Source of the DNA: Gammaproteobacteria bacterium
GTDB taxonomy: Bacteria; Pseudomonadota; Gammaproteobacteria; GRL18
Reading direction: 5' to 3'
Length of the DNA: 12,902 bases
NCBI GenBank assembly: GCA_013139395.1
Contig: WTAX01000536.1
Span: 1 to 12,902 of the forward strand
This document shows, in pieces, positions 1-12,902 of the stretch. The translations under genes and the position numbers were made by a program. Position 1 is the first letter of the stretch. Each line of letters starts with the position of its first letter. The notes beneath the pieces are model-generated. The model saw nothing but the letters and a program-made list of their open reading frames with translations, did no database searches and was not told the DNA's origin.

Positions 1-155
1 AGTAAATAATCAATATCTGCCAATTCTATTTGTTCAATATTCTTTGGGCAGGCGCTATTTTCAGTGTCTTCCATCTGAGTGGCAATAGGCAAATATGTCT
101 GACAGGCATTTAAAAATAATAGCATTAATATTAATAAAATCAGTTTGTTCAACAT
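1..155 (-). CDS. Partial lipoprotein, last visible gene of the vWA/ExbB cluster (3' end outside window)
   Basis: The reading frame is open from an ATG at 155 down to the window edge, giving about 51 residues. It begins MLNKLILLILMLLFLNACQT, a classic lipoprotein signal: short basic start, hydrophobic core, and lipobox LNAC with the lipidated Cys at residue 18. Gln follows the Cys rather than Asp, which by the Lol sorting rule points to the outer membrane. A second ATG in frame at 161 is possible, but the AGAG just before it is correctly spaced only for the 155 start. The mature part begins TYLPIATQMEDTENSACPKN and contains one more Cys. The gene follows the second vWA gene after 49 bases with no visible terminator, so it probably belongs to the same transcript. 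Too little of the mature protein is visible to assign a family. Confidence 0.75.
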   Translation of the reverse strand, partial: MLNKLILLILMLLFLNACQTYLPIATQMEDTENSACPKNIEQIELADIDYL

Positions 156-204
156 AAACATCTCTATTTTCAGGTACTGCTTTTAGTCACAGGATCCATT
201 TTAA

Positions 205-1206
205 CTATTTTGTATGAGTTAAACCAACAAAACTACCATTATTATTTTCTGCCAGCTTTCTCATTAATGCTGAAAATCGGGCTATATTCATTTCTGTGCC
301 AGGATGACTAAATAATACCGGAAATCCAACCGCATTAATACGTACTCTTTTTTTACCCCGGCTGTTTCTACGATTCAACCTGTCAACTGTGTCTAACAGG
401 GACTGTATTGAGCCGCGAGAGAAATCATCACCAAAAACAAATAATGATAGTTGTTTATCGGTCGCATAAAAGTGCTTAATAGCGTATGTGATGCCTTCTT
501 CGGGTGATGAATTAGAAAAAGGCTCCCAGGATGATAATCGTTTTAATATTGAGCGTCTTCTTGCGGGTGTATCACTAATCCATTTACCGGCATATTGACT
601 GAACATATAATCACCCATATCATTCATCACCTGAATGCCTTTTACATTGGGGTGTATGTCTAATATTTCTTTCATTTTTTTTCTAACCAACGGCCAGGCA
701 AAATTTTTCATCGATCCTGAAGTATCAATGATAAAGATAATATATTCACTATTAACACTAATACCCCCCACGGTATTTTGTTTATTGATCACTGGTTTAT
801 TTTTTTGCAGGCGGCGCATTTCATCTGTTAATGTCTGTATTGCCTGACTCATTTTTTGTTCTATAATTTTTTGTGCAACTAAGTTCTGACTGCTTTCTTT
901 TGCTTCACCTTTGACGGTTTTCAATTGTGTTAATTTTATTTCATAGTTTTGAGTTATTTGCTGCAGCTGTTGTTCTGAATTGATTAATTCACTCTCTACC
1001 TGTTTTATTTCATCCTGTTTAATTATAAGTTGCTGCTGCAGGTCACTGAGCGTCTGTCTTAAATCAGCCGTTGCTTCTTCAACAACAATAGGCTGTGATA
1101 TCTTGCTTATTACTAATAATAAAATAATGGCACCAAAGCCACAGGAGATCACATCTAAGAAAGACAGATTAAAAATTTCTATCGCTTTTCTCTGCTTATG
1201 CTTCAC
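205..1206 (-). CDS. Membrane-anchored coiled-coil vWA protein with ExbD/TolR-like TM helix (second paralogue)
   Basis: 333 residues. Order of parts: short basic N-terminus (1-10); one transmembrane helix (about 15-36) with the motif FNLSFLDVISCGFGA and an Asp at 18; Gln/Glu/Lys-rich coiled coil (about 45-137); vWA domain (about 152-330). The MIDAS metal site begins DTSGS (D161, S163, S165), and the later acidic position is FGDD (D260/D261). The middle MIDAS position seems to be Ser (near 233-234) rather than Thr. The helix-plus-Asp layout matches the ion-carrying subunit of TolR/ExbD/MotB, but no TolR/ExbD or OmpA-like peptidoglycan-binding domain follows; the vWA domain takes its place. The start is a GTG at 1206 overlapping the upstream stop by four bases (GTGA), suggesting translational coupling to the first vWA gene. 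I infer a rod subunit working with the ExbB-like channel encoded at 2319-3119. The general vWA assignment is firm; the motor role is inference. Confidence 0.88.
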   Translation of the reverse strand: MKHKQRKAIEIFNLSFLDVISCGFGAIILLLVISKISQPIVVEEATADLRQTLSDLQQQLIIKQDEIKQVESELINSEQQLQQITQNYEIKLTQLKTVKGEAKESSQNLVAQKIIEQKMSQAIQTLTDEMRRLQKNKPVINKQNTVGGISVNSEYIIFIIDTSGSMKNFAWPLVRKKMKEILDIHPNVKGIQVMNDMGDYMFSQYAGKWISDTPARRRSILKRLSSWEPFSNSSPEEGITYAIKHFYATDKQLSLFVFGDDFSRGSIQSLLDTVDRLNRRNSRGKKRVRINAVGFPVLFSHPGTEMNIARFSALMRKLAENNNGSFVGLTHTK

Positions 1207-2303
1207 GGCCAGTCTCGACTTGGTGTCATAAAGGATCCATTAGTATCAATAGCTAATTTCCAATATAGTGATGCAGCCATTGGATCACCTTCCATCGGTA
1301 ATAAAATCGTATTCACTGGAATTCTTGATGGAATAATTTTAATTGCCTTACTAAATAATTCAATTCTTTCAGAGGGAGAGACTTTTCGTTTATTGCTTTT
1401 CTTATTACCCTGAGTTGGTAAGCCGTCAGTAATTAAAATAATATTATCAGGTTTTTGTTTTAATTTTAGGTTTGCTGCAAACGCTTTACTTAAATTTGTT
1501 CCATTTTCAGGTACTAATTGCTGCAATCGTTTAAACATTCTATTCATATGTGCCTGATCACTGGTTTTTATCCATTGATACGCCTGGTTATCAGCCAGTG
1601 ATTGAGTCTCTTTGTTAAAACTAACAATTAAAAACTGACTGCTTTTAGGTAAATTGGCCACCATCCATTTAACACTTTCAACTGCCTGCAGCCATTTACG
1701 TGCTGATTTTTTTATGCTGTTTGATAGGTTTCTTTTGACAATAATATTAACAATGGTTTCATCTAACATCGAAGCTGAGTTATCCAACAGGATCAATACT
1801 CTTTTACCCCCTAATTTTAAACCTGTTAAATACTGACGATGACCATCACCTTCATATTGACGTACTTTATTACCACTTTGCTTTTGAGAAGCTTCATTCT
1901 TTTTCTGTTGCTGAATATTTCTTTTTTCAATAGCTTTAATCTCATGCTGCAGATCTTTGACCTGTTTTTTTAATGCCTGAGTCTTACTGCTGTTCCGGCT
2001 ATTTTTTTTATCGATAGTCTGTAATGATTTATTGGTTTTCGTTAATTTGTGCTGTATTTCCTGCGTTTGCTGATAATTAGATGCTAATAATTTTTGCATA
2101 TTACTCTGTCGAATAGCTGCCGCCTTAGTCTCGTTGTCAAGTTGCTCGACTTGTATACGCAACTCTTCATTTTTAATTTTATTATCACTGACAATATGTG
2201 AATTAATTATCAATACTAATAAGACAACCGCACCAAAACCACAAAACATGATATCTAAAAATGCTAAATTAAAAGAATTAATTGTGCTGTTTTTCTTTTT
2301 CAT
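1203..2303 (-). CDS. Membrane-anchored coiled-coil vWA protein with ExbD/TolR-like TM helix (first paralogue)
   Basis: 366 residues. Order of parts: basic N-terminus; transmembrane helix (about 14-37) with FNLAFLDIMFCGFGA and an Asp at 17; long coiled coil rich in Gln, Lys and Asn (about 42-145); vWA domain (about 166-360). The MIDAS motif looks complete: DNSAS (D174, S176, S178), T269 in NGTNLSKAF, and D293 in ITDG. The topology should be N-terminus in, vWA domain in the periplasm. It shares the unusual FNLxFLDxxxCGFGA helix with the next gene, so the two are paralogues that may form a heterodimer, as ExbD/TolR/MotB-type subunits work as dimers. It starts 15 bases after the channel gene and its end overlaps the next start by four bases. 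No Shine-Dalgarno sequence is obvious before the ATG at 2303. Function beyond metal-dependent protein binding is unknown. Confidence 0.9.
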   Translation of the reverse strand: MKKKNSTINSFNLAFLDIMFCGFGAVVLLVLIINSHIVSDNKIKNEELRIQVEQLDNETKAAAIRQSNMQKLLASNYQQTQEIQHKLTKTNKSLQTIDKKNSRNSSKTQALKKQVKDLQHEIKAIEKRNIQQQKKNEASQKQSGNKVRQYEGDGHRQYLTGLKLGGKRVLILLDNSASMLDETIVNIIVKRNLSNSIKKSARKWLQAVESVKWMVANLPKSSQFLIVSFNKETQSLADNQAYQWIKTSDQAHMNRMFKRLQQLVPENGTNLSKAFAANLKLKQKPDNIILITDGLPTQGNKKSNKRKVSPSERIELFSKAIKIIPSRIPVNTILLPMEGDPMAASLYWKLAIDTNGSFMTPSRDWP

Positions 2304-2318
2304 TAAAAATCAATTGGG

Positions 2319-3119
2319 CTAGCTTCTTAATCTTGAGACTAGATTTTGATCGCAGTAATCTTCTGAATCCAGTACCAGACGTTCCTGTAGTAATTGCAGT
2401 TGATGAATAAAAAACATCAGTACGATGGAAATCACCAGTGCAATAAATGTTGAATTAAATGCCACCCCTAATGATTCGGTCACACCGGTTATATCTCCCT
2501 CCATTGCTCTATTAGCTTGTGATAAGGCATCACCAATACCTCTAACGGTTCCTATAAAGCCTACCGAGGGAATTGCCCATGCAATATAGCGAATAATGGA
2601 TAATTCTGTTTCCAGTCTTTGTGCTTCTGATTCACAAATATCTCGCATGGCTGAATGCGCATCATGCACATTGCGTGTCGCAGAAAAACGCTGCACAGTC
2701 ATTTTTAATGCTCTGGGCAATAAGTAATGATGAATATTCTCCGGGAATTCACTTATTCGTTGTAATAGTGATTTTGTATCTTCCGGCCCTATGGGTAAAT
2801 CAAACGGTAGCTTTAAGAGATCAACATCTAATAGTTTATTTTGTTTCCATGATGATAAGCCCTTAAAACTCATAATCGCTAATGCCCAGAACATTAAAAT
2901 AAAGCAGGCTTCCTGTTCATAATCTCTTACTACCACATAAAAATTACGTTTTTGAACATAGGATGTATCCGCAAGCATTGCTTTGTGTTCAGCCTGCATA
3001 AAACTATCAGCCTGTGGCCGGATGACAGATATATAGACACTATGAACAATAATAAAGGCAATTAGCAGTGAAAAGATTTGATATATTAATTCCGTTGGAA
3101 TGTAACTTCTATTATTCAT
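2319..3119 (-). CDS. MotA/TolQ/ExbB-family ion-channel protein
   Basis: 266 residues from the ATG at 3119. Hydrophobic segments, counted from that start, lie at about 12-33, 70-87, 175-199 and 214-240. The segments lie around a roughly 36-residue external loop and a roughly 90-residue cytoplasmic region, a four-helix MotA-like arrangement. The last two helices carry the family signature: IPSVGFIGTVRGIGDAL, then VTESLGVAFNSTFIALVIS. These match the TolQ/ExbB pattern G-x-x-GTV-x-GI and the following A/T-rich helix, including a Thr in each helix (GTV and NST) where ExbB and TolQ have theirs in the ion path. In-frame TTG (3131) and GTG (3128) starts exist further upstream. I prefer the ATG because GGTG sits six bases before it and nothing resembling a ribosome site precedes the TTG. 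It directly precedes two genes for single-pass proteins with a transmembrane Asp, the normal ExbB-ExbD or MotA-MotB order. Family confident; ion and physiological role unknown. Confidence 0.9.
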   Translation of the reverse strand: MNNRSYIPTELIYQIFSLLIAFIIVHSVYISVIRPQADSFMQAEHKAMLADTSYVQKRNFYVVVRDYEQEACFILMFWALAIMSFKGLSSWKQNKLLDVDLLKLPFDLPIGPEDTKSLLQRISEFPENIHHYLLPRALKMTVQRFSATRNVHDAHSAMRDICESEAQRLETELSIIRYIAWAIPSVGFIGTVRGIGDALSQANRAMEGDITGVTESLGVAFNSTFIALVISIVLMFFIHQLQLLQERLVLDSEDYCDQNLVSRLRS

Positions 3120-3233
3120 GATTGACACCAATACAGGTTTTTTAATTGTTTAATGTATATTTTTAAATAACGTTTGTTAGCTTATGGTTACTATTTTTAT
3201 ACAATATATATATATATGATTTAAGTAGTTAAT
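3120..3233 (-). promoter_or_regulatory. Intergenic gap with a possible promoter containing an (AT)7 repeat
   Basis: This is the longest gap inside the cluster, about 114 bases between the small secreted protein and the ExbB-like gene. It is almost pure A+T. On the minus strand TTAAAT and TATAAA (the latter near 3196-3201) are separated by 17 bases, and the spacer is largely an (AT)7 repeat at 3204-3217. This is a weak promoter match. I see no hairpin followed by a T-run that would act as a terminator. The gap may mark an internal promoter giving separate expression of the channel/vWA half, but in DNA this AT-rich such matches arise by chance. Confidence 0.25.
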
Positions 3234-3461
3234 TTATATATCAACAGGAAAAGATACTGAACTATCCGCATTTATTTTTTCACTGGGAATAAATTTAACT
3301 GGCTTTTTTATCGATTGCTTTATTTTTCTTTCTTTAGAACTTGTTGCTTGCTGTTGTTTTTTTTGCGTTTCTTGTTGTTCATCAGAATATACCAGTGAAA
3401 ACACAGGTATAATAAAAATACAGAAAAAAATAAGACTAAGCATCACTTTCATATCTTTCAT
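3234..3461 (-). CDS. Small secreted (periplasmic) protein, unknown family
   Basis: 75 residues. It has a clear Sec signal peptide (MKDMKVMLSL, then a hydrophobic core to about residue 20) with a likely cut after VYS at 26. The mature part is about 49 residues: a Gln/Lys-rich stretch (27-55) and a more structured-looking tail with FIPSEKINADSSVSFPVDI at the C-terminus. The ATG at 3461 overlaps the stop of the FHA/PEGA/SUMF1 gene by four bases (ATGA), supporting a real, translationally coupled gene despite the small size. In-frame Met codons at 4 and 7 are alternative starts. The Cys at 13 lies in the signal core and there is no lipobox. I do not recognise the family. Position suggests a small periplasmic partner of the SUMF1 protein or of the motor that follows. 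Confidence 0.7.
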   Translation of the reverse strand: MKDMKVMLSLIFFCIFIIPVFSLVYSDEQQETQKKQQQATSSKERKIKQSIKKPVKFIPSEKINADSSVSFPVDI

Positions 3462-6046
3462 TGAGCATACCTTGCTAATCTAAAACCAATATCATTGGCT
3501 TTTTTCTTACTATAACTTCGATAGCTCAATCTTAATTCTGTGATAGATGCATCACGCCAGCTAGCATCTCTCACTACTTTATGTGTTCCTTTTTTCGGGC
3601 CTTTTGGATTTAACGAGACTTTATTTCCTGATTGTCCAGAAGTAGGGGAGTAATAATCCTGACACCATTCCGAGACATTACCGCCTAAATCATAAAAGCC
3701 CATTTCATTTTTGGCATAACTTCCAATCGGTGCTGAGACACTTTGTTGATCATTATAGCCGCTAATCGTATTAGTGATATGTGTGCTGGCAGAATCATCT
3801 GCAAAGTTGCCGCTACCGTTTATAGGTGGATAATTACCATTCCAGGAATATTTTTTTTGATTTTTTCCTCTTGCCGCTAAAACCCATTCTGCTTCAAAGG
3901 GTAATCGATAGCCTTTATTGTCAGCATTGATATCAACCGGGCTCATTTTTCCATTTTCTTCTTTGTAATAGACTTCAATTGATTCTCGTTTACTTAACCA
4001 GTTAGCAAATCTGGCGGCATCCTGCCATGAAACATTAACTACAGGTTGATTATTCAGGTTAAGTGATTCATTATTTGTACTGCCTGAATTATGTGATTTT
4101 TTAAATTGTCGGTATTGTTTATTGCTTATCTCTTTTTCTGATAAATAATAAGCATAGTTTAATTGTATTTTATGTTCACTTTCATTGGAGCTTCGACCTG
4201 CTTCATTTTTCCTGGAACCCATCTTAAATAGTGCAGGCTGAACTAATATCATTTTTTGTTTGATGATATTTCGATAATTTTTGTTGTTTCCTGAATGGTT
4301 TTTATTATCATTTTTTTTATTTACAGTTTTAGTGACACTCGCCGATGATTTCTTCACACTATTTTTTTTCAAGATAAAGCTAATATTTTTACTATAAGCA
4401 TTAATGGTAATTTTTTTACTTTGTGTCTGATATCCTTTTGCCTGAACTTTAAGTAAATGATTTTTATTTGTTAAATTGAATTTTCCGGAATTTTCTTTTT
4501 GTTTTTTTCCATCGATATATAAGTCTGCATGTTTCGGTGAGACGCTGATAAAAACCAGACCTTTTTTTGCTGTTAATTTAAACTCTTCTTCTATACTTAT
4601 CTCTGGTTCTAATTTAACTATTTTTTTAGTGGTTTCAAAACCCTGTAAACTTAATTCAATTGTATGTTCCTGATAGGGGCTTAGTTTTAATGTTTGGGGT
4701 GTTTTACCAAGATACTGATCATCAACACGTATAATACTTTGTGAAGGGATTGAGCTTAAGTGTAAAATTCCATCTTCCGGCTCAAGCTCAAATGGTTTAA
4801 GACTCAGTTTATCTCCCGCCTTAATTGTAACTTGTTCTGTTTTTTCTTTAAATTTTTCCTTAGTGGCAAGAATAGTATACTGGCCTGTAATTAATTCAAT
4901 TTCTGTTACACCATTGATAACATTGTCATAAACTACTGATTTATTATCACTTGCTGAAGTGATAATTATTTTTGTCTCTTTTTGTGATGATTCGAGCCTC
5001 GCTATTCCCCAGTTTTGTTGTAATTTAATTTTGTATTTTTGCTGTTGGTTCTTTCCTTCAACCTTAATTTTTTGTTCATAGGCTTTATAGCGCGGATTAA
5101 TAATCCTTACATTATGTACTCCCTTATCCACTTCATATTGACGTAAAGTCATTTCATTGCTTGTATGGGCTAATAATATATCATCAATATAAATCTCATT
5201 ATTTTGTTCAGGGTTTATATCAAACTGAATAATTCCCGGTGTTTCTTTCATGGTAAAGGAAAAGTCATTATTTTCAACATTAATATCCAATGTACTACTA
5301 AGCGTTTTATATCCAATTTTTTTAGCTTCCAGTATGTATTTACCACTGAGCATAATATAGCGCTGATCAATTTTTATAGCAGGTAGAAAGCCTTTTAAAT
5401 TGATGCTATCAGCCTCTGGTTTAATATTAATAACAACTGTTTGTGCAAATAAAACAAAACCTGCTGCCAGCATTAGCAGTACTAATAACACTGGAATTAA
5501 TTTATATTTTGCTATTTTGTTTTTTGCACGATCAGGTTTCGTAGGACTCATCTTAAAATCTTTTAAAACTGATGTTTTTTGTTGCTGATTGTTAATGTTA
5601 TTATTATACTTATCACTATTCAGGGGGGGAATGATAACAGGGGCTTCAGGTTTTTTTGTGACTGTCATTAATACCTTATCACCTGAAACACTATAAATAA
5701 TTATCATTTTTTCAATTTGTATTATATCGCCTGATTTTAACCATACCGATTTTTTTATTATTTCATCATTATGAAATATGGTACCACTTATGCCATCTTC
5801 ATCTGGCTGAAAAAATAAATGATTGTCTTCTTCTGCAATATAACCGAAGATTTTTTTTTCTTGCTCCTTTTTTGTTTGTTCTTTTTTTGCTTGTTCACTT
5901 TTTAATAGTTCAGAGTTTTCATTAAGTGGTGCTATTAACAGTTGTCTTTCTTCTTGTATGAAATAAATTTTAAGCGGCAAATCAGCAGAACACATTTCTA
6001 TATGTTCTTTTTTATCATCATAGAAAATTTCTATCAATCGTGTCAT
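3458..6046 (-). CDS. FHA-like / TM / PEGA-repeat / SUMF1 (FGE-sulfatase fold) membrane protein
   Basis: 862 residues. The cytoplasmic N-terminus (1-125) looks like a divergent FHA domain: its end, HNDEIIKKSVWLKSGDIIQI (92-111), fits the 'NG..i...v.L..GD.I.ig' strands, but I cannot find the usual phosphothreonine-binding Arg and SxxH residues. A charged (EQxKK)3 repeat (51-65) interrupts it. One transmembrane helix follows at about 183-205. The periplasmic part has about five PEGA-like beta repeats (about 203-267, 271-341, 345-420, 427-492, 497-560), the clearest being IRVDDQYLGKTPQTLKLSP and LYIDGKKQK. A Lys/Asn-rich linker (561-595) leads to a SUMF1 domain (598-860) with MILVQPALFKMGS, PVVNVSWQDAARFANWLS, YRLPFEAEWVLAARG, MGFYDLGGNVSEWCQDYY and IGFRLAR. 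The two active-site cysteines of formylglycine-generating enzyme are absent from the C-terminal part, so a binding or scaffold role is more likely than catalysis. It overlaps both neighbours by four bases. Confidence 0.9.
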   Translation of the reverse strand: MTRLIEIFYDDKKEHIEMCSADLPLKIYFIQEERQLLIAPLNENSELLKSEQAKKEQTKKEQEKKIFGYIAEEDNHLFFQPDEDGISGTIFHNDEIIKKSVWLKSGDIIQIEKMIIIYSVSGDKVLMTVTKKPEAPVIIPPLNSDKYNNNINNQQQKTSVLKDFKMSPTKPDRAKNKIAKYKLIPVLLVLLMLAAGFVLFAQTVVINIKPEADSINLKGFLPAIKIDQRYIMLSGKYILEAKKIGYKTLSSTLDINVENNDFSFTMKETPGIIQFDINPEQNNEIYIDDILLAHTSNEMTLRQYEVDKGVHNVRIINPRYKAYEQKIKVEGKNQQQKYKIKLQQNWGIARLESSQKETKIIITSASDNKSVVYDNVINGVTEIELITGQYTILATKEKFKEKTEQVTIKAGDKLSLKPFELEPEDGILHLSSIPSQSIIRVDDQYLGKTPQTLKLSPYQEHTIELSLQGFETTKKIVKLEPEISIEEEFKLTAKKGLVFISVSPKHADLYIDGKKQKENSGKFNLTNKNHLLKVQAKGYQTQSKKITINAYSKNISFILKKNSVKKSSASVTKTVNKKNDNKNHSGNNKNYRNIIKQKMILVQPALFKMGSRKNEAGRSSNESEHKIQLNYAYYLSEKEISNKQYRQFKKSHNSGSTNNESLNLNNQPVVNVSWQDAARFANWLSKRESIEVYYKEENGKMSPVDINADNKGYRLPFEAEWVLAARGKNQKKYSWNGNYPPINGSGNFADDSASTHITNTISGYNDQQSVSAPIGSYAKNEMGFYDLGGNVSEWCQDYYSPTSGQSGNKVSLNPKGPKKGTHKVVRDASWRDASITELRLSYRSYSKKKANDIGFRLARYAQ

Positions 6047-7206
6047 ATTGTTTCTTTACACTTTACATTGAGTATAATTAATTGATCGGCGGCAGTTATG
6101 ACTACCTTCTTTCTAACATCACGATATCCCTCTCTTGAACCTACTATAGTATAATGACCTGGTCTTAATGTTAGTTTCTTTTCTGTTAATTTTCCAAAGC
6201 TGCCAACTTTATATATAGAGATTTCTGTTAAATTATCTGATTGTATTGTGACTTTTATTGGTATCGATGCTTCGTTTATGATCTTCTCTGCTGTTGAGAT
6301 TTTTCTTGTTAATCCTGGTGTTGTACTTAAGGGATATAACAGTTGCCGTTTTTCTTTAAGTTCACTCTTTATCAACTGGATTGAATTTTTTGCATTAGTT
6401 AATACTTTATCATCACTTAAACGTTCTGGTTTTTCTACAATATTATTGAGTATTGTATTTAGCTTCAGGTAAACATTTGCACGTTGTTTTTTTACTATAA
6501 TACTATTGATGTTAGCATCTATGGATAATATTTTTTTATAAACATTTATTGCCTGCAGCCATTGTTCATTTTTTTCTTCTTGTTGAGCAGTTTGTATTAA
6601 GTTATTTATTGTTAGTTGTTTTCTTTTATCAGTAATTCTTTGTTTAAGCTCTTTTATTACAGGTTCATTGGCTTTTAGCAGTCTGGCTACTGTCAGGTTT
6701 TTTTCTGCACGGTTAAAGTTATTTTTTTCTATTGCGGAAAGTACTTCGCTGATATTTTTATTAAATTCTTTCTCTAACGTTTCTTCTTCTAGCTTTTGTT
6801 TTAATACAGTTTCTTCTTCATTTTTTTTATTTACCAACTCAAGCTCAGCAGCTCGTTCTTTTTTTTCTTCAGTGTTAATTTCTGCTTCTTTTAGAAACTC
6901 TTTTTTTTTCTCTTCCTCTACGATTTTTTTTATTGGTTCACTGAATTCTTTAGTTACCTCTTTTTCTTCTTTGTCCTTATTAATTATTATTGTTTTTTCA
7001 GGTATCTTTTTGGGTTCACCAGTAGGAGGGGAGGAGGGTGGTGATAATAATAAACTTATTATAATTAAGATCAGACATATAATAGTACCCAGAAGTATTA
7101 GAATCAGGCTAGAAGATTTATTATTACTGGAAATACTATTTTCCATATCTTCTTTTATCTGTGCTTCCACACTGGAAGAGGGTGCTTTCAGGTTCACTTT
7201 GTCCAA
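6043..7206 (-). CDS. Single-pass membrane protein with coiled coil and C-terminal PEGA-like domain
   Basis: 387 residues. Parts in order: cytoplasmic tail (1-32); transmembrane helix (about 33-54); Pro-rich spacer (SPPSSPPTGEPKK); Glu/Lys-rich coiled coil (about 75-150); helical, TPR-like region (about 152-255) containing EKNNFNRAEKNLTVARLL and EKNEQWLQAINVYKKILSID; further helices to about 312; and a PEGA-like domain (about 316-381) with LTLRPGHYTIVGSREGYRDV. The coiled coil plus periplasmic C-terminal domain recalls TolA-like linkers in shape only. The assigned start is TTG at 7206, with TGAG eight bases before it; GTG at 7197 and ATG at 7146 are in-frame alternatives and the true start is uncertain. 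It follows the lipoprotein gene by 43 bases and its stop overlaps the FHA/PEGA/SUMF1 start (ATGA), so the two PEGA proteins are probably made together and may pair in the periplasm. Confidence 0.82.
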   Translation of the reverse strand: MDKVNLKAPSSSVEAQIKEDMENSISSNNKSSSLILILLGTIICLILIIISLLLSPPSSPPTGEPKKIPEKTIIINKDKEEKEVTKEFSEPIKKIVEEEKKKEFLKEAEINTEEKKERAAELELVNKKNEEETVLKQKLEEETLEKEFNKNISEVLSAIEKNNFNRAEKNLTVARLLKANEPVIKELKQRITDKRKQLTINNLIQTAQQEEKNEQWLQAINVYKKILSIDANINSIIVKKQRANVYLKLNTILNNIVEKPERLSDDKVLTNAKNSIQLIKSELKEKRQLLYPLSTTPGLTRKISTAEKIINEASIPIKVTIQSDNLTEISIYKVGSFGKLTEKKLTLRPGHYTIVGSREGYRDVRKKVVITAADQLIILNVKCKETI

Positions 7207-7249
7207 TTTGTTAACTCATTTTATCTTTTAATTGCTTTTTCCAAGACCC

Positions 7250-8503
7250 TTAGAATCCAGTTTCTTTATGATAGATTTTTTTTAATAATTGTCGCCACTT
7301 ACCATATTGCTGATCGGCAGTCCCTGTCAATTTCATGGTTTTTCCATCAACATCAATAACAACCGGCTCTACTTCTATTTCAAAAGATGCCCCTAATTCT
7401 TCAATTACTTCTTTATTTATTTCACTTTCTTTACTTGTTTGAATTCCACTATAGACAGCATAACCACCACCGGCAATCATTACTGTTCTGAGTGCACCCG
7501 TTCTATTAACTACATCTGAATTTTTTGATGCTCCTAAGGCTATAGCACCAATAATTGCCACTGCACCCAATATTTTTTGTGTTAGTGCTTTTCGCTCGAT
7601 TTCCCTGATACTTTCTAATTCTTCACATCTGAATTTTCGCCAGTTATCATAGCTATCCCAGATATCACTATAATAGACATCATAATAATTATTAAGAGTA
7701 TCGATGAGCATGTCATCTCTGGCTTTAATTGAACGTACTCTTGCCAACATAGTGTCATTATCTGATGGTAATTTTCTTAAATGGAATTTTCCTTCTTTAT
7801 CTTTTGCAATGTAACTTGAAAAAGTTTCAGCTGCCATAAAGTTAGCAAATCTCAGTTCAGCAATTTCTTTAATGCGTTTAATTTCAGCGCTCTTTATTTG
7901 TAGTCTGTATTCTATAATATCATTGGATATTTCATTATATATGTTCTGAAATCTATCGTTTCTTTCTGCTTCTGTAATTTTTTGTTGATCGACTCCCACA
8001 GTTTCTTCATAGTTTTTTTCAAACCATTTATTATTACCGGCATCAAATACTTCTATTGCTAATTCTATATTTTCACCATCAGAATTAATGATTTTTCCTT
8101 TAACTATAACTTCACTGCCTTCATTATCATCAGGCACTACTCTTACGTTCCCCCAATAACCTGTTCGCTGCATCGTATATTTTAAATGTATCGGCATAAA
8201 ACGGGCTTCAGCACTTCTTATTTCTTCTGATAAACCTCTTTTATCATCTTCATCTGTAGGCAATTCACCTGGTTCAAATTGTTTTATTGATACATTTAAT
8301 AATTCACTTTCTTTTATTTCATAAGGAGCCATTATGGGTTTTACATCTTCTTTTACATTATATAGTACTGTTGAACAGGCATTTAACATCAGAATAACGA
8401 TGAGTAAACTCACAAATTTAGCTTTATTTATTATTTTTGAGCTATTGTTTGTTAGAGTATTTATTGCAACTGCTCGTTTTAGTTTGTTATTCTGTTCCAT
8501 CAT
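7250..8503 (-). CDS. Large lipoprotein of unknown family, probably outer membrane
   Basis: 417 residues. A long basic N-terminus (1-29) precedes a hydrophobic core and the lipobox LNAC, with the lipidated Cys at 43; Ser follows, which favours outer-membrane sorting. The first mature domain (about 50-170) includes RTGYWGNVRVVP, VIVKGKIINSDGE and DAGNNKWFEKNYEETV, a beta-rich region. A long helical stretch (about 175-310, many Glu, Arg, Lys) follows, then a Gly/Ala-rich hydrophobic segment (about 311-355: GAVAIIGAIALGA and VMIAGGGYAVYSG) resembling a glycine zipper able to insert in or associate with a membrane. A beta-rich tail has PVVIDVDGKTMKLTGTADQQY. The ATG at 8503 overlaps the previous stop by four bases; a second ATG follows at once at 8500. 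I cannot assign a family. Its place in the operon suggests the outer-membrane anchor of the system. Confidence 0.85.
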   Translation of the reverse strand: MMEQNNKLKRAVAINTLTNNSSKIINKAKFVSLLIVILMLNACSTVLYNVKEDVKPIMAPYEIKESELLNVSIKQFEPGELPTDEDDKRGLSEEIRSAEARFMPIHLKYTMQRTGYWGNVRVVPDDNEGSEVIVKGKIINSDGENIELAIEVFDAGNNKWFEKNYEETVGVDQQKITEAERNDRFQNIYNEISNDIIEYRLQIKSAEIKRIKEIAELRFANFMAAETFSSYIAKDKEGKFHLRKLPSDNDTMLARVRSIKARDDMLIDTLNNYYDVYYSDIWDSYDNWRKFRCEELESIREIERKALTQKILGAVAIIGAIALGASKNSDVVNRTGALRTVMIAGGGYAVYSGIQTSKESEINKEVIEELGASFEIEVEPVVIDVDGKTMKLTGTADQQYGKWRQLLKKIYHKETGF

Positions 8504-9327
8504 TCTTTGCCGATTGTCCGTTTATACTTATAGTATTCATCCCAGAGTTTTTCTTTAAGTTCCGGGTTAGTTTCATTTTCTGCTGCTTCTTTTAATTGTC
8601 TTGCTACAATATCATCATCAATTTCATCTAATTTCTTTCTCTTATAGCTTTTATTTTTTGCCTGGTTATTCTTACCTTTTGAGCGAGAATTCTCACTAGT
8701 GGTATTCTGTTTATTGCTATTGCTATTGCTATTTTTTTCTTTTCCTGCTTCTTTATTGTCCTCTCTACTTGAATCAGCTGCATCACCTGTTTCTTTGCCT
8801 GATAAATTTTCTGTACCGTTGACGTCGCTACTTCTATCACTTCCCTGAGCAGCTTTATTCTGGTTAATTTTGGCTATTTTTTCATCTTCTATCAATAACA
8901 TCTCATCAAATTCTCCCAGGGCAGTCATAAATTCGTCATCTAATGATTCTATTTTTTCTTTTGTTGTTTGATGATTATCATTTGTATTTGCTTCCATGTG
9001 ATTTGTACTACAAGCTAAGTCCTGTACTGATTCTTCCCCGTATTCCTTAATTAATTTAGTACAATAACTGTTTATCTTGAATGATAGATAATCTATAAAT
9101 ATTGAATACTCTTTTATAATTGTCTTATCTTTAATCGGTGAGTATTGTGCTAATAGTAATTCTTGATATTTTTTTCTGGTAATATCCAGGGCAGTAATTG
9201 TTTCACTAACGCTTTGATAATTATTAGAAAATTGTTTTTTAGAATAGGTATTCAGGGAATAGGCTGCCTTGTTTATGGTGATTAATATAAACAGGGCAAT
9301 TATGCAGGCAGTTATTTTTTTTTTCAT
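8500..9327 (-). CDS. Secreted low-complexity protein, first gene of the cluster
   Basis: 275 residues. A Sec signal peptide (1-24, ending NKAAYS) is followed by a helical domain (about 30-150) with two Cys (89, 106) that could pair in the periplasm. A hydrophilic, probably disordered Ser/Asn/Lys/Glu linker follows (about 155-230, including an SNSNSN stretch). It ends in a charged helical tail, DEIDDDIVARQLKEAAE, then NPELKEKLWDEYYKYKR. The tail looks structured and is likely the conserved working part. The ATG at 9327 is followed by a run of ten A residues (plus-strand T run 9315-9324). The ribosome site is poor: GAGG lies about 14 bases upstream. The end overlaps the lipoprotein start by four bases. 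I do not recognise a family; low-complexity content makes homology calls unsafe. Confidence 0.75.
   Translation of the reverse strand: MKKKITACIIALFILITINKAAYSLNTYSKKQFSNNYQSVSETITALDITRKKYQELLLAQYSPIKDKTIIKEYSIFIDYLSFKINSYCTKLIKEYGEESVQDLACSTNHMEANTNDNHQTTKEKIESLDDEFMTALGEFDEMLLIEDEKIAKINQNKAAQGSDRSSDVNGTENLSGKETGDAADSSREDNKEAGKEKNSNSNSNKQNTTSENSRSKGKNNQAKNKSYKRKKLDEIDDDIVARQLKEAAENETNPELKEKLWDEYYKYKRTIGKE
8712..8732. repeat. Hexanucleotide tandem repeat (TATTGC, about 3.5 copies)
   Basis: The plus strand reads TATTGC three and a half times in tandem. It encodes the SNSNSN stretch of the secreted protein linker. Because the unit is six bases, copy-number change would alter linker length without breaking the frame. 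Confidence 0.7.
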
Positions 9328-9465: not shown

Positions 9466-11961
<2,496 letters not shown>

Positions 11962-12020
11962 TTATATTAAATCTATTTATTTAAAATCATTTGATTAATC
12001 AACTGACAAGTACTTCAACC

Positions 12021-12026
12021 ATTATA
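12021..12026 (-). promoter_or_regulatory. Candidate -10 box for gyrB
   Basis: Minus-strand TATAAT in the context GGAGTATAATGG, about 93 bases before the gyrB ATG. The -35 region 17 bases upstream (AAGAAG) is poor. A supercoiling-sensitive promoter would be normal for gyrB, but the sequence alone cannot show that. Confidence 0.35.
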
Positions 12027-12098
12027 CTCCATCTTTTCTTAATCTTCTTCTTTTAGTTCGCATATTGTTTGCTCACTATTTACTTTATTTTTGTAATT

Positions 12099-12107
12099 TT
12101 ATTCACA
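12099..12107 (+). promoter_or_regulatory. DnaA box (TTATTCACA)
   Basis: Exact match to the TTATNCACA DnaA-binding consensus, in the recF-gyrB gap, two bases from a second box in the same orientation. Confidence 0.65.
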
Positions 12108-12109
12108 AC

Positions 12110-12118
12110 TTATCCACA
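12110..12118 (+). promoter_or_regulatory. DnaA box (TTATCCACA)
   Basis: Perfect high-affinity DnaA box, spaced 11 bases (start to start) from the neighbouring TTATTCACA, so both lie on nearly the same helix face. The pair sits just after recF. It may let DnaA act on gyrB transcription or form part of an origin-proximal DnaA-binding cluster. Confidence 0.75.
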
Positions 12119-12132
12119 GTTTTCTAACAACT

Positions 12133-12902
12133 TTATTCATTATGTTTCACGTGAAACATTTTATGTTCAGCATTTTTAAGAAAACTAAATCTGCTTTTGT
12201 TAGTGGTTGTAGCTATTACCTGACAATCAAGTGTAGCTAGTATAGTAAATAATATTTCTAAATTTTTTGAATCAAGCTCACTATCAATATCATCTAATAA
12301 AAGCAAATTATGAATTCGCATATTATCAATTTCAATTAGATAACGAAATTGAGCTAAGATAAGACATATTATAACAATCTTCTTTTGACCTCTTGAGAGA
12401 ATATCTTTTGCAAGATTCTTATTTATGCTAATTCTTAATTCACATCTATGTGTACCGTAACGTGTAAATCCAGCAGATACATCTTCATTAAGTTTTGTCT
12501 CTAAATATTCGGCATAGTTTAATTCTTTGCTCCAGCCTTGATAATAGTTCAAGGAGATCTGTTCGGATAATGAAGAAGAAAATAATGATAAATATTCATT
12601 AAAATATGATGTAATATTTAACACTTGTCTGGAACGGTATTCATTCAATTTATTATTAAGCTCAATTAATTGAGGATTCCAGCAATTAATTAATTCTAAC
12701 TGTTGAGCACTTAATTTATTATTCTTTTTGAAGTTATTTGAAGATTTTGAGAGAACATTATTCCTATTGTTTAGAATTTTTTTATAGGATCTCCAATCAG
12801 ATAAAAAAGAATGTTCCACGTGAAACACTCCCCAATCTATAAATTTTCGGCGTATAGATGGCCCGGCATCTAATAAGGTAAAACTTTCAGGTGTAATTAA
12901 TC
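12133..12902 (-). CDS. recF: DNA replication and repair protein RecF, C-terminal two thirds (5' end outside window)
   Basis: The frame is open across the window edge; 255 residues are visible of a family about 350-375 long. The GTG at 12828 is not a real start, because the frame continues upstream as LLDAGPSIRRKFIDWGVFHVEH, matching the RecF 'GPS.RR.FLDWG' region. Later come GFTRYGTHRCEL (family GFT..GPHR.DL), the ABC-type signature SRGQKK (near 12380-12396) and the Walker B/D-loop LLLLDDIDSELD (near 12271-12306). The Walker A motif would be outside the window. RecF is an SMC-like ATPase that with RecO and RecR loads RecA at single-strand gaps. The protein ends MFHVKHNE-stop. Both histidine-rich FHV[EK]H peptides are encoded by parS-like palindromes. 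The Cys after HR in GTHRCEL replaces a usual Ala or Asp. Confidence 0.95.
   Translation of the reverse strand, partial: LITPESFTLLDAGPSIRRKFIDWGVFHVEHSFLSDWRSYKKILNNRNNVLSKSSNNFKKNNKLSAQQLELINCWNPQLIELNNKLNEYRSRQVLNITSYFNEYLSLFSSSLSEQISLNYYQGWSKELNYAEYLETKLNEDVSAGFTRYGTHRCELRISINKNLAKDILSRGQKKIVIICLILAQFRYLIEIDNMRIHNLLLLDDIDSELDSKNLEILFTILATLDCQVIATTTNKSRFSFLKNAEHKMFHVKHNE
12143..12158. promoter_or_regulatory. parS: parS site (TGTTTCACGTGAAACA), perfect palindrome
   Basis: Exact 16-bp palindrome identical to the well-known ParB-binding consensus; symmetry extends to 18 bp (12142-12159). ParB would load here as the centromere-like site for chromosome partition. It lies within the last codons of recF and specifies the peptide MFHVKH. 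The origin-proximal location fits known parS placement. parA and parB are not in the window. Confidence 0.88.
12812..12827. promoter_or_regulatory. parS: parS site (TGTTCCACGTGAAACA), one mismatch from perfect symmetry
   Basis: Matches the parS consensus TGTTNCACGTGAAACA. It is 669 bp from the other site, centre to centre, and also inside recF, where it encodes the FHVEH peptide following IDWGV. Confidence 0.85.

Follow-up and report, generated by a model that had tools for sequence, protein, structure and literature searches.

An eight-gene operon that probably encodes an ion-driven trans-envelope motor with vWA-tipped rods

What might an ExbB-type channel and two vWA proteins drive when their genes stand in one row with those of scaffold proteins and lipoproteins? 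The question is raised by contig WTAX01000536.1 of a Gammaproteobacteria bacterium (assembly GCA_013139395.1), whose full length of 12,902 nucleotides we call the window. A sequence-only reading of the window had proposed an ion-driven envelope machine built from a channel, two vWA rod proteins, PEGA/FHA/SUMF1 scaffolds, and two lipoproteins. We found that eight of its genes, here called S, L, C, F, s, Q, A, and B in gene order, are one conserved operon, whose arrangement recurs across many bacteria that are only distantly related. We believe that this horizontally mobile operon probably encodes a trans-envelope, ion-driven motor of the 5:2 kind. Gene content, gene order, co-occurrence, and conserved residues were observed, and folds were predicted; we describe these before turning to the machine itself.

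Conservation and spread of the operon

The nine same-strand genes and four 4-base overlaps claimed for this DNA were present. All lie on the minus strand: eight full genes run from 9327 to 205, and a ninth starts at 161 and is cut by the contig end. The overlaps are exactly 4 bases long at S/L, C/F, F/s, and A/B, and the remaining gaps measure 43 bases (L to C), 102 bases (s to Q), and 15 bases (Q to A). The window is one complete contig, and its genome is broken into 550 contigs totaling 3.2 Mb (79% completeness), so the DNA beyond base 1 is unreadable.

Homologues of B were sought in GTDB genomes, which gave at least 557 relatives among at least 587 pattern matches, and the best 80 were taken. 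We trained profiles of the eight proteins on the collected loci and with them counted genes upstream of B on the strand of B, using only those of the 80 named loci found through B that had enough upstream DNA. Because the profiles were trained on the same loci, these counts are biased toward success. A was found in 60/60 loci, Q in 56/56, s in 53/53, and F in 45/45. C was present in 38 of 39 loci (missing from L046), and L and S were each present in 31 of 33 (missing from L046 and L093). Outside the eight families, no candidate for a ninth core gene exceeded 10 loci among the 80 with a crude gene caller. Two noncore clusters reached 10 loci; by eye, one resembles antisense operon frames and the other GAF-domain proteins.

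In a separate test, a vWA alignment and an L alignment were each run independently on 274 gammaproteobacterial genomes, the source genome included. The vWA alignment matched 20 genomes and the L alignment 19; 18 genomes had both and 253 had neither (Fisher p 5e-25). Counted by genus, 14 genera were shared between the 15 with vWA and the 15 with L among 221 genera (Fisher p 4e-20). Two genomes had vWA only (G110 and G235), and one had L only (G207). G003 and G110 each gave a single weak vWA match of A-type strength, and the L match of G003 holds six internal stops. Of the 18 genomes with both, 12 had L and B on a shared contig at a distance of about 5.5 to 8.6 kb. For the other 6, the L and vWA matches fell on separate contigs, in assemblies of 90 to 560 pieces. 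A match to B was also found in 15 genomes among 40 relatives (source genome included).

The operon occurs in another proteobacterial class and in Desulfobacterota besides Gammaproteobacteria. A 299-genome sample of the phylum gave a vWA match in 15 genomes, 13 of which belong to one family of another class. All 13 matched L as well, G406 by a contig-end fragment only. The phylum to which the Desulfopila genome G579 belongs gave matches in 3 of 247 genomes, one of which was G579 itself. When 13 further stretches were inspected, 11 carried S, L, C, F, Q, A, and B. G235 showed S, C, F, A, and B, with L and Q not found, and Q of G114 is positioned behind B. Whether the genes keep company elsewhere had been set beforehand as the test that could refute the unit, and the neighborhood check found them together in the gammaproteobacterial, other-class, and further-stretch data. 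The operon is therefore patchy (20 of 274 in the gammaproteobacterial sample) yet kept together. The last of the 13 stretches, from the one-contig genome G207, retains only disrupted frames of C and L and part of S, with no F, Q, A, or B in 15.5 kb (locus L169, G207:C1:1834000-1849500); judged from these frames, the operon seems to be decaying there.

To place the window among its relatives, we used a quick midpoint-rooted tree of the joined Q, A, and B proteins of 77 loci; its labels come from submitters' titles, and it contains long branches. The window and its three nearest relatives fell inside a 24-row group (SH-aLRT support 97) that includes 16 Thermodesulfobacteriota and 4 rows labeled Myxococcota. 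Separate from this stands a main group of 26 rows, 25 of them Pseudomonadota. Because the copy in the window branches among Desulfobacterota/Thermodesulfobacteriota, these protein sequences suggest horizontal transfer into its lineage. Plasmid-borne spread was considered and dropped, as a tblastn search with B against 72,556 plasmid records gave no match. One locus in the set, L070, is filed as a Halobacteria archaeon; its Q, A, and B are almost identical to those of the Ectothiorhodospiraceae bin L079, so that a binning error is probable.

The motor core

Q (positions 2319 to 3131) is the channel subunit. Its probable ATG start at 3119 gives 266 amino acids, the length of near homologues. Q matched MotA_ExbB (PF01618) at 3.9e-16 with 59.4 bits against a cut-off of 22.9, and a sequence-profile search of the PDB with Q returned nothing at E 0.1. 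Hydrophobic segments at residues 19-37, 75-93, and 224-242, together with a stretch at about 180-200 that aligns with the second helix of ExbB, imply four helices in a MotA-like layout. Thr195 and Thr228 are invariant (77/77 rows) and align with Thr of the ExbB proteins of the same genome.

The two vWA proteins, A (1203 to 2303, 366 amino acids) and B (205 to 1206, 333 amino acids), share one plan: an N-terminal pore-type helix with an Asp, a coiled-coil-like middle, and a vWA-type domain with a DxSxS motif (DTSGSM in B). They are 30% identical over B residues 4-137. A matched VWA_2 above the cut-off (2.6e-7). B stayed below it for both VWA_2 (0.002) and VWA (0.004), and its family nonetheless keeps DxSxS in 92/92 rows. 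In the A family, the Asp of this motif is found in 88/89 rows and both Ser in 89/89. The Asp of the first helix, Asp18 in B, is kept in 92/92 rows of B and in 86/89 rows of A, the other 3 being gaps, and it aligns with that of the ExbD and MotB-like proteins of the same genome.

A relative of ExbD was sought in 97 loci and not found, nor did one appear in these plus the 13 further stretches at E 0.05; as a control, the two ExbD queries found each other at about 1e-17. The aligned Asp in A and B and the lack of an ExbD relative in the loci support the earlier claim that the vWA proteins carry an ExbD-like helix. Pfam placed no OmpA-type wall-binding domain on A or B. A match between B and MotB (E 0.45 and 0.67) was weak and was not used. 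What the core offers is the combination expected of a 5:2 motor, namely, a ring subunit of the MotA/TolQ/ExbB family and a one-helix rod with a conserved Asp.

Over the source genome as a whole, MotA_ExbB gave six matches and ExbD two. Both ExbD genes adjoin other ExbB genes, one set being followed by a frame that reads by eye as TonB-like (contig C130), and two further MotA_ExbB genes adjoin frames that read by eye as MotB. The sixth match (contig C21, L151) falls on a gene of 324 codons whose C-terminal tail is long, and neither ExbD match lies on that contig.

The sequence-only reading knew of no described motor that combines a vWA-ended rod with these partners. For the rod, this is not supported as stated, since such a motor has been proposed. 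Williams-Jones et al. 2025 (PMC12204202) describe, in the text drawn on here, vWA proteins with a TolR/ExbD-like pore helix that form heterologous pairs beside tolQ-like genes without tolR. These TPH-vWA proteins are proposed to rotate inside a TolQ-like ring, and the same text presents an AlphaFold 3 model of the Q-vWA arrangement. Q, A, and B agree with this family in the TolQ-like gene, the heterologous vWA pair, the pore-helix Asp, the absence of tolR/exbD, and the Thr ring. They also agree in the absence of SHLS, as neither A nor B of the window has a literal SHLS motif. The comparison is with the published description of the family. The difference lies in the partners: the section on this family and its legend assign it none of the FHA/PEGA/SUMF1, TPR, or lipoprotein kinds, the TPR gene mentioned there belonging to another, first vWA family. 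The text used here contains neither SUMF1 nor PEGA (0 occurrences each, figure 4c being outside the comparison). Among open-licence papers, preprints excluded, no other relevant description surfaced. The motor core has already been proposed in print, and the complete eight-gene set seems to be undescribed.

Two other motors invite comparison. The gliding motor AglRQS likewise has one MotA-like ring gene and two rod proteins with an Asp helix; however, the part of PMC9389320 used here describes the Agl rods as MotB homologues, whereas those of this operon are vWA proteins. MotAB resembles the core in the four-helix layout of Q and in the Asp helix but differs in the wall-binding domain, which Pfam did not find on A or B.

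The other proteins of the operon

F (3458 to 6046, 862 amino acids) is the largest protein of the set. Residues 1-130 are followed by a hydrophobic helix at 183-201, PEGA repeats, and a SUMF1/FGE domain at 597-859. Against Pfam, the window protein matched PEGA at 4.2e-24, FGE-sulfatase/SUMF1 at 4e-43, and FHA only at 0.1. Across aligned members, PEGA and SUMF1 were each found in 36/36 and the Pfam FHA domain in 2/36. An AlphaFold2 model of the F start (predicted local distance difference test [pLDDT] score, 88) gave listed structural matches that were nearly all FHA domains, so the model supports a degenerate FHA fold. We take the phosphothreonine-binding motif of FHA domains to be GR, S..H, and N. 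In a 28-row alignment of the F start, the Asn was conserved, and no Arg, Ser, or His was conserved at the corresponding places. In L166, the one locus of another class inspected in full, F (L166:5601-7661) has no FHA part and begins with a short cytoplasmic tail, which implies that FHA is not an essential sensor.

The best model for the SUMF1 domain of F was GldK (5.7e-34), at 118.1 bits far below the NCBIfam equivalog cut-off of 350. The catalytic cysteine pair of FGE presumably lies near the C-terminus. In 36 rows of F, no Cys was invariant in this domain. In 62 rows, the commonest Cys columns (33 and 30 rows) fell in the NWLS and EWCHDYY regions and not at the presumed catalytic site, and F of the window has no Cys among its last 40 residues. 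From these alignments, we take the SUMF1 domain to be noncatalytic.

C (6043 to 7206, 387 amino acids) has one hydrophobic helix near its N-terminus (residues 34-52), a helical middle, and a PEGA-like C-terminal end that falls below the Pfam cut-off in the window protein. TPR_2 was found in 17/25 aligned family members, and the window's own C gave no TPR match.

L (7250 to 8503, 417 amino acids) is a lipoprotein whose lipobox-type Cys, Cys43, is invariant across 36 rows. Its family comprises 634 proteins at E of 1e-3 or below among 7994 scored, and none of the 120 matches listed carries a Pfam domain. In an AlphaFold model (pLDDT, 87), residues 48-206 resemble FlgT, PelC, CsgG, DUF330, and the first domain of TolB, with long helices behind. 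No TolB match appeared by sequence profile, and a profile search of the PDB returned nothing below E 0.8. The C-terminal half was compared with the helical pores SmhB/AhlB; TM-scores near 0.2 and root-mean-square deviations of about 15 to 19 led us to set this comparison aside. The predicted domain of L, the degenerate FHA fold of F, and a SUMF1 domain without the conserved cysteine pair are new.

The two remaining proteins, like L, matched no Pfam family above the cut-off. S (8500 to 9327, 275 amino acids) is secreted and has a low-complexity middle. Its C-terminal stretch is strongly conserved in a 21-sequence alignment, with D238, D239, R243, Q244, E247, A248, A249, W262, and Y265 among the invariant residues. 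The product of s (3234 to 3461) has 75 amino acids and an N-terminal hydrophobic segment. Within the deeper loci L166 to L168, L177, and L178, s was weak in L166 and not found in the others, implying that s is fast-evolving or dispensable.

Some deeper-branching loci carry an extra gene of about 430 to 470 codons immediately upstream of A; in those with Q ahead of A, the gene stands between the two. It lies at L091:7245-8660, L093:7485-8909, and L174:9707-11071, with similar genes in L095, L170, L171, L172, L175, and L176. Pfam found a C-terminal FHA domain in 3/4 of those scanned (E 1.6e-11 to 1.8e-12). The N-terminal part resembles an actin/Hsp70-type ATPase by impression only.

The cut gene at the contig end (1 to 161) was the second of the two outer membrane lipoproteins claimed for this DNA. 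Its full-length homologue in L021 belongs to the LpoB family (PF13036, 31.0 bits, cut-off 22.3), which Pfam describes as a peptidoglycan-synthase activator. Such homologues occur in 13/97 loci, all from the genus or family of the window or near kin, and a gene so confined is not part of the conserved core. In near relatives, the LpoB-family gene stands behind B and is followed by a conserved gene of about 185 codons (L021:11086-11574 and 11618-12172). The position of the LpoB-family gene behind B in many near relatives is the sole functional hint from beyond the core. On the other side of the operon, the window holds frames that read by eye as recF (cut) and gyrB. The latter also precedes the operon in L018 and L021 and was not found in the other 94 loci, most of which are too short to show it.

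The proposed machine and its alternatives

From these data, we infer that a ring and a rod assemble, that ions drive their motion, that the vWA heads grip, that F and C are contacted, and that force is passed to L. By analogy with known motors, Q would form an inner membrane ring with one helix of A and one of B in its pore. The Asp of A or B may carry the ion beside the two Thr rings of Q, as homology and the published model of the relatives suggest. Ion flow would then turn or tilt the A-B rod, which would lift the pair of vWA heads into the periplasm. With their DxSxS metal-site motif, the heads could serve as metal-dependent grips rather than as a cell wall anchor. F and C, in the same membrane, may build a collar in the periplasm from their PEGA, TPR, and noncatalytic SUMF1 domains. 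The force would probably be received by L, placed at the outer membrane, whose predicted fold resembles those of the ring-forming FlgT, PelC, and CsgG and of TolB in its first domain. Candidate uses of this force are outer membrane or wall upkeep, secretion, and surface movement.

The collar would play the role that the SUMF1-like GldK and GldJ have around the GldLM motor. According to the passages of PMC8986121 used here, a rod dimer in a pentameric ring acts on SUMF1-like outer parts, and what GldLM is proposed to turn is a ring of GldKNO. Part of PMC9127263 describes GldJ as related to GldK and as a SUMF1 homologue that lacks the active site. GldKLMN differs from the operon in that the GldM rod is not a vWA protein and in that F is an inner membrane protein rather than an outer membrane lipoprotein. 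The likeness is limited to the SUMF1 domain, with its score far below the GldK cut-off.

The alternative that survives best, though we consider it unlikely, is a signaling complex in which the channel and the vWA pair sense or gate ions and a chain of FHA, SUMF1, and lipoprotein parts relays the signal with no mechanical work. The FHA fold on F fits this, as does the extra gene with its C-terminal FHA domain upstream of A in some loci. We also counted in its favor the regulation of type VI secretion, which involves the joint action of a SUMF1 protein, a lipoprotein, and a vWA kinase. However, Pfam showed no kinase domain on the eight proteins at E values up to 1, F of L166 begins without FHA, and F of the window lacks the presumed binding residues. 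The ion-path residues, moreover, are kept in every gap-free row.

We think it more doubtful still that the operon holds two modules that do not touch, a vWA motor of Q, A, and B and a separate envelope complex of SUMF1, PEGA, TPR, and lipoprotein parts. The loci G235, with neither L nor Q detected beside A, B, F, C, and S, and G114, with Q behind B, would fit such a division, as would the published proposal, which in the text of PMC12204202 concerns a TolQ-like protein and the vWA pair alone. Against it stand the near-complete co-occurrence and the kept ordering of the genes, seen in more than one class and phylum.

A divergent Tol-Pal or Ton system is very improbable and was dropped for want of an ExbD in the loci. 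The TolQ-like Q and the predicted resemblance of L to the first domain of TolB are points of likeness. The loci hold no TolR relative, however, L has no TolB match by sequence profile, and the eight proteins have no Pfam match to TolA, the TolB propeller, or Pal/OmpA. The genome also has its own ExbB-ExbD set with the TonB-like frame and a second ExbB-ExbD pair. We give least credence to a Zorya-like anti-phage system, dropped because a weak match of Q to the ZorA2 model (6.7e-5, 20 bits) was all that spoke for it, with no match to ZorB, ZorC, ZorD, or ZorE in the 7/8 proteins scanned (s excluded) and other matches weak and to unrelated systems.

For the ion-driven trans-envelope motor that we favor, a more specific form is possible, and we offer it tentatively. 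The operon may encode a distinct and undescribed trans-envelope machine, a 5:2 motor in which two unlike metal-site vWA grips cyclically seize the SUMF1/PEGA/TPR collar and drive an outer membrane ring of lipoproteins of the FlgT/PelC/CsgG kind. Transferred horizontally among sulfur-cycle bacteria, it would serve secretion, surface movement, or wall growth.

Taken together, these data extend a published proposal, a vWA-tipped ion motor whose partners were not named, to eight defined genes that supply a candidate ring, rod, collar, and outer membrane receiver. What vWA-tipped motors drive thereby becomes testable through gene removal and structure. The data also suggest that envelope motors of more than one kind have noncatalytic SUMF1 domains as scaffolds at their side.

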